Source of the DNA: Nitrosomonas sp.
GTDB taxonomy: Bacteria; Pseudomonadota; Gammaproteobacteria; Burkholderiales; Nitrosomonadaceae
Direction: 5' to 3'
Assembly (NCBI GenBank): GCA_017984435.1
Contig: JAGNZK010000008.1
Location: forward strand, 1 to 64,000
Length of the DNA: 64,000 nucleotides
This document shows positions 39,162-40,308 of this stretch, piece after piece. Below the pieces are notes generated by a model. The model ran no database searches. It saw only the letters and a program-made list of their open reading frames with translations, and was not told the DNA's origin. A program made the position numbers and the translations under genes. Position 1 is the first letter of the stretch; the number at the start of each line of letters is the position of its first letter.

Positions 39162-40169
39162 TTACCCTGCCTTCGCTCGTGACACCATATCTTTGACCGC
39201 AGGTGTCATGTTTACCGGCACAAGCTTGGTATCTCTATGGGCATTCTGGAATACCCGGAATACCTCATCAGAAAAAGCCTGTCCAATTTCTTCAATCCCG
39301 GTGAAATCAAGAATGACGGTTTTGAATTTCTCAAAACGAAATATCAGTCTTTTCGCCTGCGATCTGGATACCAATTTTTCGCCTTCGTACTGACCCAATC
39401 GGACAGGAACAATTGTTTTGGCAAATGTGTACTCTTCAGGTACCGCAAATTTGTCAAAAATTGCTTTTGTTATGCGGGTACTGTCATTCATCAGACGCAT
39501 GACTACCAGCGTCCCTGACGCATTTTTTGGGCGCTCGATCAGCATGTCGTCCAATCCGTCTTCATGCATAAAATGAAGACTTCCAGAGCGAATATCAAAA
39601 AGATCGAATACTTTGCTGGAAAAGAAGATTCCCTCACCAGAATGATTTACCGGGTCTGTTGTGAATTTTCCCTTTGCCAGTTCCAAAATTGCTTCGCGCG
39701 GATCGAAAAGATCAAGAGCTTTCTGAATTTTATTGAAGATGCCTTCACCATCATCAGCAACCCAAGCTTGGGTATATAAGGCATTGCGCACCACCCAAAC
39801 TGTAATTTTATTGGCACCGGAGTGGTCTATCGCATTGTTGACCATTTCGGTAAAGCCATAGCGCCAAATATCGCGAACATTCTCTGGCAAACCTGCCACC
39901 ACCGGAGCAAACAGAAAAGACCAAACTCTATCTTCGGATAAACCTGCTCTATCGTATTCCTGATGAACACGAAACAATTCAGCAAGCACATACTCAACAC
40001 CGCGCCCAACACCATGCTTCGTAATCAATCCCTTCGATGCTGCAATCCGCAACCTTGTGCTGGCGGCTTGACGGGATACACCTAAACTACTCGCCAGCCT
40101 GGAAGCAACATTTTTTCCGTCATCGGAAACAAGCTTTAGCAAGTTATGGATAGACTCATCAATCAGCAT
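39162..40169 (-). CDS. HTH / GHKL-ATPase / STAS-like (DUF4325) fusion regulator
   Basis: 335 aa with three parts. Residues 18-50 look like a winged-helix DNA-binding head (NVASRLASSLGVSRQAASTRL). Residues about 100-235 are a GHKL ATPase of the anti-sigma or histidine-kinase type: N box E108-N112 in TEMVNNAIDHS, G1 as DDGEG at 139-143, G2 as HSGEG at 176-180. There is no histidine phosphorylation box. Residues about 255-330 fit the STAS-like DUF4325 domain (TVILDFTGIEEIGQAFSDEVF). One protein thus combines the kinase-like and STAS-like halves of a partner switch with a DNA-binding part. Its targets are unknown. No Shine-Dalgarno is seen; four phased repeats lie immediately upstream. Confidence 0.85.
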   Translation of the reverse strand: MLIDESIHNLLKLVSDDGKNVASRLASSLGVSRQAASTRLRIAASKGLITKHGVGRGVEYVLAELFRVHQEYDRAGLSEDRVWSFLFAPVVAGLPENVRDIWRYGFTEMVNNAIDHSGANKITVWVVRNALYTQAWVADDGEGIFNKIQKALDLFDPREAILELAKGKFTTDPVNHSGEGIFFSSKVFDLFDIRSGSLHFMHEDGLDDMLIERPKNASGTLVVMRLMNDSTRITKAIFDKFAVPEEYTFAKTIVPVRLGQYEGEKLVSRSQAKRLIFRFEKFKTVILDFTGIEEIGQAFSDEVFRVFQNAHRDTKLVPVNMTPAVKDMVSRAKAG

Positions 40170-40180
40170 TTGGCATATTA

Positions 40181-40256
40181 AACGTAAAGATTATATTGAT
40201 CAATTGTAAACAACATTAGAAATAAATGTAAAGTTTAAATGATGAAAACGTAAAGT
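40181..40256 (-). promoter_or_regulatory. Four 22-bp-phased repeats (AAYGTAAAGW) over the regulator promoter
   Basis: AACGTAAAGA (40181), ATTGTAAACA (40203), AATGTAAAGT (40225) and AACGTAAAGT (40247) recur at exactly 22-bp spacing, two helical turns, so all face one side of the DNA. On the minus strand a perfect -10 TATAAT lies at 40195-40190 with no good -35 at 16-18 nt, which suggests activator dependence or tight control. Repeat 1 lies at the likely transcript start, 12 nt before the ATG. The adjacent HTH protein is the obvious candidate binder (inference). Confidence 0.75.
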
Positions 40257-40308
40257 ATGAAAATAAAATTTCAAACTAAAACACTATCCATAAGGAAAAG
40301 GAATTACC

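Follow-up and report, generated by a model that had tools for sequence, protein, structure and literature searches.

The window, the whole 64,000-nucleotide stretch of a Nitrosomonas sp. contig analysed here, carries on its minus strand one intact open frame of 335 amino acids (39162–40169). Its product joins a predicted winged-helix (wHTH) DNA-binding head, a GHKL ATPase domain and a DUF4325 STAS-like tail (Table 1). The sequence-only reading of this DNA had assigned these three parts to a single chain, which profile searches bear out, with only DUF4325 (residues 271–325) scoring above its Pfam cut-off (54.3 bits compared with 23). HTH_24 (residues 4–50) reached 17 of the 21.9 bits required and HATPase_c_2 (residues 92–195) 21.6 of 27.4. 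Although the ATPase match falls below the cut-off, its motif residues are fixed across the 87 full loci described below: E108, N112, D139, G141, G143 and G178 are identical in all 87, and G180 in 86. The N, G1 and G2 boxes had been noted as standing without a phospho-histidine box, and no such domain appeared among the Pfam matches of the protein up to E 1. A sequence search of solved structures returned no full-length relative of the window protein; TubR and AspA were among its weak wHTH matches. The two neighbouring genes encode an RTX-repeat protein and a zinc dehydrogenase; neither is a PIN gene, part of an immune operon, or a replication or partition gene.

Table 1. Features of the wHTH–GHKL–DUF4325 gene and its upstream array
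Feature	Position	Strand	Basis
Solitary gene, 335 aa, wHTH + GHKL ATPase + DUF4325	39162..40169	-	Open frame, Pfam, alignment
DUF4325 STAS-like domain, residues 271–325	39195..39359	-	PF14213, E 1e-14
GQAF, residues 296–299, at the Ser/Thr place of stand-alone DUF4325 proteins	39273..39284	-	Alignment
GHKL ATPase domain, residues 92–195	39585..39896	-	HATPase_c_2, E 2e-4, below cut-off
G2 box HSGEGIFF, residues 176–183	39621..39644	-	Alignment
G1 box DDGEGIF, residues 139–145	39735..39755	-	Alignment
N box TEMVNNAIDHS, residues 107–117	39819..39851	-	E108 and N112 identical in 87/87 loci
Winged-helix DNA-binding head (predicted), residues 4–50	40020..40160	-	HTH_24, E 0.0044, below cut-off; weak ArsR/MarR-like PDB matches
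Recognition-helix stretch SRQAASTRL, residues 32–40	40050..40076	-	Helix location taken from the HTH match
Array copy 4, CTTTACGTTTA, closest to the start codon	40179..40189	-	Sequence, conservation in relatives
Perfect TATAAT	40190..40195	-	Sequence
Array copy 3, GTTTACAATTG, degenerate relative to AAYGTAAAGW; also gives the -10-like TACAAT	40201..40211	-	
Array copy 2, CTTTACATTTA; also gives the -35-like TTTACA	40223..40233	-	
Array copy 1, CTTTACGTTTT	40245..40255	-	Sequence, conservation in relatives
Poor fifth copy, GTTTGAAATT, 21 bp farther out	40267..40276	-	Array scan

A phased repeat array at the window promoter

Upstream of the gene lie four repeat copies at steps of exactly 22 bp. 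Three match AAYGTAAAGW exactly (at 40181, 40225 and 40247) and the copy at 40203 (ATTGTAAACA) differs from it at two positions; the earlier count of four such repeats was therefore right in its spacing and for three copies, but too generous for the fourth. Scanned for four copies on its minus strand, the window scored at best 41 out of 44 at a spacing of 22, compared with 26–31 at the other spacings between 12 and 39. In a three-copy test confined to the window's own upstream region, 2 of 40 dinucleotide shuffles reached the observed score, and so the weight rests on the presence of four copies and on the relatives.

The promoter elements overlap the array. The TATAAT that had caught the eye at first is present and perfect, and the 14 other aligned loci all lack it at this site. 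The accompanying statement that there is no -35 element does not hold once the whole array is considered, as copies 2 and 3 together form TTTACA-18-TACAAT, with 10 of 12 matches, the sole minus-strand promoter match in our scan. Ten bases separate the end of the last copy from the start codon in the window, and 9–16 bp across the window's cluster.

Separately, 18 occurrences of the box TCAGTTTGAA, with one mismatch at most, were counted in the whole window (6.4 expected), a number reached by none of 100 shuffles. We considered it as a cassette border and rejected it in that role, as it is a degenerate array copy in register in L002, L010 and the window.

Phase and letters of the array across relatives

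From 96 loci, we dropped 9 with a short protein or upstream region and kept 87 full loci, window included, which fall into 55 clusters at 75% identity; L001, L023–L025, L027–L029 and L034–L047 had been left out before counting as same-place repeats, pattern hits or fragments. Only 82 of the 87 rows differ, so some places are counted twice, most of which is corrected by the cluster counts. With gaps fixed at 21 or 22 bp and a score of at least 22, arrays were found upstream in 54 of the 87 loci and 29 of the 55 clusters, compared with 6 of 1,395 control segments. With gaps left free between 12 and 34 bp and one representative drawn per cluster, the best 10-mer triple had both gaps at 21 or 22 bp in 23 of 55 representatives, whereas segments drawn from elsewhere in the same loci gave a mean of 0.43 of 55 over 30 draws. 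At least one gap of this length was present in 41 of 55 representatives (control mean, 9.0 of 55). The search for the array upstream of homologues, proposed together with the sequence-only reading, thus finds both the repeats and their 21–22-bp phase conserved in many relatives, where their absence had been named as grounds for refutation.

Conservation is concentrated in the repeats themselves. In 15 loci picked from the 21 of two clusters (L005, L007, L013, L084, L101 and L102 being left out), the mean majority share was 0.88 in the cores and 0.52 in the spacers. The conserved core spans 10–11 bp, and a lax count gives 3–6 copies per array. Among the 54 arrays, those of L022, L075 and L087 are doubtful, as their best triple differs from the motif of their kin. 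The remaining 33 loci lie below the array score; some of them hold a weaker 21–22-bp pair (L030, L032, L058, L066 and L090) and others nothing. L007 encodes a protein 81% identical and lacks an array at the score used (upstream of 3001), indicating that its array has decayed or that the gene is controlled otherwise.

Several upstream regions also contain inverted copies. L058 and L066 have a TTAAG-type array and, after it, a copy in inverted orientation (TTTTCTTAAAGGA or similar) by the start codon, within the last 60 bases, and the upstream region of L077 (the same place as L030) holds a perfect inverted repeat, AAACGTAAAG-CGGAT-CTTTACGTTT, built from array cores. A purely direct-repeat model leaves these three cases unexplained.

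The letters of the array change with the recognition helix. We compared 30 clusters, including that of L066, which lies below the score and was added by hand; the motif labels of L051, L058, L066 and L108 were also set by hand. Clusters with Arg33 carry TTKAC cores (TTTAC or TTGAC) in 21 of 23 cases, and those with another residue in none of seven, with TTGTC in two and TTAAG in three instead. TTGTCGAT arrays occur in two of the three Lys33 clusters and CTTTAAGAAA arrays in three of the four Pro/Ala33 clusters. On the tree, each new motif fits a single origin, giving two motif changes, each on one branch; the Fisher P value (1.8e-5) thus overstates the link between motif and residue 33, which reflects two tree changes rather than thirty independent points. 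L108 combines Arg33 with a mixed TTGTC/TTGAC array, its arginine having been kept or regained.

Within genomes, the diverged arrays are confined to their own gene. Exact tandem TTGTC pairs were found before the gene in four of five carriers and nowhere else in them, with one carrier having none; a single hit occurred in one of five non-carriers. Exact tandem TTAAG pairs preceded the gene in three of four carriers, again nowhere else there and with none in the fourth, and were absent from five non-carrier genomes. Together with the joint change of motif and helix, these hits make the strongest case for each protein reading its own array. An autoregulator that reads its own phased repeats is thus well supported by comparison, and of the original proposal of an autoregulator or sensor of its own repeats, it is this own-array reading that the kept repeats, their phase and the motif–helix co-change uphold; the ATP control and cooperativity put forward with it are proposals.

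Other array targets were sought with a two-copy pattern (up to two mismatches) in 15 genomes and rejected, as the search recovered the genes' own promoters and a few scattered hits, about as many as a backward control. One of the scattered hits, L130 (G022:C5:39700-41700), revealed on inspection by eye a second array at about 955–1060, with three copies spaced 21 and 22 bp apart. Next come an ATG with a handful of codons similar to the beginning of the gene and, after these, a GNAT gene. The same genome also holds an intact gene, and L130 may be what is left of a lost copy, or else a further target. L131 offered nothing of note.

Two other accounts of the array have to be weighed here. The repeats might be stacked, overlapping sigma-70 elements (TTGACA or TTTACA as -35, TACAAT as -10) kept for expression, with no binding by the protein. 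The promoter match of copies 2 and 3 agrees with this, as do the many relatives with TTGACAAT or TTTACAAT, in which gaps of 21–22 bp yield 17–18-bp spacers. However, the TTGTCGAT and CTTTAAGAAA arrays keep the phase without resembling promoters, the copies outnumber what a promoter needs, the conserved core is longer than 6 bp, and motif and recognition helix change jointly, all of which makes this account improbable. An equally improbable alternative is an autoactivator or bistable autoregulator, in which protein on the outer copies recruits polymerase instead of blocking it. In several loci, the last copy ends 20–40 bp before the start (L014, 38; L015, 20; L017, 32; L062, 40), so that the array could sit upstream of the promoter; the short distances in the window and its cluster argue against it, as does the location of the window's minus-strand promoter match inside the array, a place suited to repression. 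Thus, with copies 2 and 3 holding the only minus-strand promoter match and the last copy so close to the start codon, repression is the likely outcome of binding at the window promoter.

A lone and widely scattered gene

The reach of the family is wider than the sequence-only reading saw. The search of genome contigs yielded 21 loci, and 19 IMG/VR viral contigs encode relatives. At E ≤ 1e-40, genome scans found the gene in 31 of 369, 7 of 398 and 22 of 300 genomes, with one match in each; these sets overlap and each count includes the window's own genome. Matches at E ≤ 0.001 came from 13 of 101 nearer genomes. On the tree, L014 and L015 from Thermodesulfobacteriota are placed within Pseudomonadota copies, indicating spread between phyla. 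Genome G053 contains an intact copy and three fragments elsewhere, two of them with a stop; those at G053:C1:1880488-1880929 are pieces of a broken second copy with stop codons. With tblastn at E ≤ 1e-5, neither the named plasmid nor the named phage collection gave a match, and we rejected the idea of a plasmid or named-phage gene, although the IMG/VR contigs do encode relatives.

No shared neighbour or operon emerged either. In 56 neighbour ORFs (the longest non-overlapping frames) from 33 loci, integrase domains were the only ones to match more than one ORF at E ≤ 1e-4, and no PIN domain was present among the 25 of 53 neighbour families listed. By contrast with its changing surroundings, the array seems to travel with the gene. 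When the window is aligned as DNA with L004, L005, L006, L009, L011 and L012, the alignment sets in 86–93 bases ahead of the start codon, right where the outermost good repeat lies, and runs to about the stop codon; with L002 and L003 it sets in 123–124 bases ahead of the start codon, and with some others later. From these limits, array and gene seem to move as a unit among different neighbours. In L082, a phage tail region encloses the gene, which is on the opposite strand; this position, together with its solitary state, is what an accessory gene that has its own promoter would show. L091 has a copy near a portal gene and L098 one near a tape-measure gene.

Such settings bring up the possibility that the protein is an accessory anti-phage or superinfection factor (a moron) with an activity of its own, autorepression serving merely to silence it. 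The patchy presence with one match per genome, the spread between phyla and the copies in or near phage genes fit this idea, which is compatible with autorepression and which we hold to be plausible, if on balance doubtful. Against it, the window protein has no effector domain in its Pfam, NCBIfam, PADLOC or PHROGs matches. Its PADLOC matches are weak (E 0.002–0.02), three of the four being to HTH parts of CasR/Csa3, with none at 1e-10, and just three defence models, once each, appeared in the 56 neighbour ORFs. A role against phages or in the response to damage is conjecture from analogy. For the window at large, PADLOC at E ≤ 1e-10 on 54 of its 56 ORFs gave mad3 (two), mad8, a phospholipase effector, PDC-S31, RT-Protease_XI, Csa3 and AriA, which may be generic matches.

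A putative kinase–substrate pair in one chain without the acceptor

The DUF4325 tail differs from its stand-alone counterparts at one telling place. Ten of eleven short DUF4325 frames were read, leaving out L180 (717 aa) and two more matches in genome G879, one of which is the eleventh short frame. All ten (nine of them aligned) have a Ser or Thr within three residues before an invariant Phe, as in TSAF, SSF, TQSF and TAF, whereas the window protein has GQAF and the fused family Gly-Gln-Ala/Gly, with no Ser or Thr at 296–298 in 85 of 87 loci. With the Ser/Thr replaced by Gln-Ala, a classical phosphorylation switch is unlikely, and we infer that it has been lost in the fused family, the missing residue being matched to the stand-alone proteins rather than to the published VapS serine. 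One could still imagine that the fused ATPase phosphorylates DUF4325 at another residue, as a CapK/CapS version acting in cis. The kept ATPase residues, N-box Glu included, would allow this; the near-universal absence of an acceptor before the Phe, and the position of the conserved S268 and S270 in another part of the domain, leave it the least probable of the alternatives considered. G879 (L169 and two C22 places) itself has a fused gene plus two further DUF4325 matches elsewhere.

The short DUF4325 proteins belong to two-gene systems. In all eight cases scanned, they follow an ORF with a HATPase match (E ≤ 0.01, about half below the Pfam cut-off), and STAS_2 matched below cut-off in two of the eight upstream ORFs. 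L166 is an ATPase–DUF4325–PIN operon with PF14213 in its middle gene, vapKSC-like as judged by domain layout. Upstream of the two-gene systems, the best triple had both gaps at 21 or 22 bp in none of nine. In hhalign, DUF4325 against classical STAS reached 2.7% probability, though in register. The label 'partner-switch-like' given in the earlier reading therefore holds in that the tail shares a Pfam family with the vapKSC-like middle protein, and fails at the acceptor.

In the classical partner switches SpoIIAB/SpoIIAA and RsbW/RsbV, a GHKL ATPase carries an N-box Glu. The window protein resembles them in this residue and, by family name, in the STAS-like fold, but has its DNA-binding head in the same chain, no known sigma factor and no acceptor serine; it falls short of a classical anti-sigma switch both there and in its sub-threshold HATPase_c_2 match. 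Iteron-binding Rep proteins and the DNA-segregation proteins TubR and AspA place a winged helix on phased repeats, whereas the array here sits at the gene's own promoter, away from replication or partition genes.

The closest known systems are CapK/CapS and VapKSC, and the initial view that none with a name would fit needs some correction, as both are close in parts and logic (PMC13373217). As described, CapK (HTH–STAS–GHKL) and CapS (STAS–wHTH) are encoded by two adjacent genes, most pairs lying beside immune operons; CapS has an essential Ser54 and recognizes TTAA palindromes through two-fold contacts; and the promoter is autoregulated with cooperative binding, crystal packing pointing to a possible filament on DNA, and single-stranded DNA activates the system (PMC13373217). 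The window gene shares the GHKL ATPase/kinase, the STAS-type substrate and the winged helix, and differs from CapK/CapS as described there in being a single gene of the order wHTH–GHKL–DUF4325, in lacking the acceptor serine, in having direct repeats at 21–22 bp instead of a palindromic operator, and in adjoining no immune operon, in line with the few defence models among its relatives' neighbours. The same source gives vapKSC the layout ATPase–DUF4325–PIN, with a conserved Ser or Thr in VapS (PMC13373217). Here the likeness is the DUF4325-type substrate domain (PF14213), common to the window gene and the L166 middle gene; compared with the VapKSC so described, the window gene has no PIN/VapC neighbour and no Ser/Thr acceptor, and unites ATPase and DUF4325 in one chain with an extra DNA-binding head. 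For binding, a close parallel is BldC, a MerR-like protein of 68 aa that forms head-to-tail oligomers on direct repeats (PMC5859096); head-to-tail assembly would follow the same logic here, although BldC as described has no ATPase or STAS part. In our literature search, no title or abstract dealt with the fused protein or its array, and DUF4325 was hardly named.

We therefore favour, as the probable reading, a one-gene, self-contained, ATP-gated cooperative autorepressor without a phospho-switch, possibly forming a head-to-tail chain. The winged helix would read its own promoter at one asymmetric 10–11-bp site every two helical turns, as suggested by the conserved array and by the joint change of its motif and the helix. 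With direct repeats lying on a single face of the DNA, symmetry calls for a translational contact, so neighbouring protomers, if they touch, would do so head to tail and not by a two-fold. The GHKL ATPase and DUF4325, kin of a VapK/VapS-type kinase–substrate pair, may form this contact within or between protomers; both surfaces would already be at hand in a polypeptide that holds an ATPase and a substrate-type domain. Acting as a natural gate, the ATPase could then make or break the chain through its nucleotide state and, with the substrate Ser/Thr lost, the switch should be non-covalent. A signal, which by the CapK/CapS analogy might be damaged DNA or an attacking phage, would open the chain and free the array-embedded promoter, and the protein would accumulate.

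A bolder version, which we advance tentatively, is a partner switch turned polymer: the substrate domain of one protomer would cap the ATPase of the next, head to tail on direct repeats with one protomer per two turns, and ATP would decide assembly. The array would be carried with the gene, its phase kept while its letters drift with the helix, amounting to a portable, non-covalent version of CapK/CapS.

The window gene is one of a fused wHTH–GHKL–DUF4325 family with a 21–22-bp phased array before its own gene. This solitary gene seems to control itself by copies of its protein lined along evenly spaced upstream repeats, and is apparently kin, in one piece, to a two-piece DNA-damage switch of bacterial immunity. 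Such a family would show a kinase–substrate immune switch folded into one acceptor-less chain. Its diverged protein–operator pairs, with the same spacing and changed letters, would offer a natural test of helical phasing, and the array and helix residue 33 would give a concrete handle on a gene carried by some phages.
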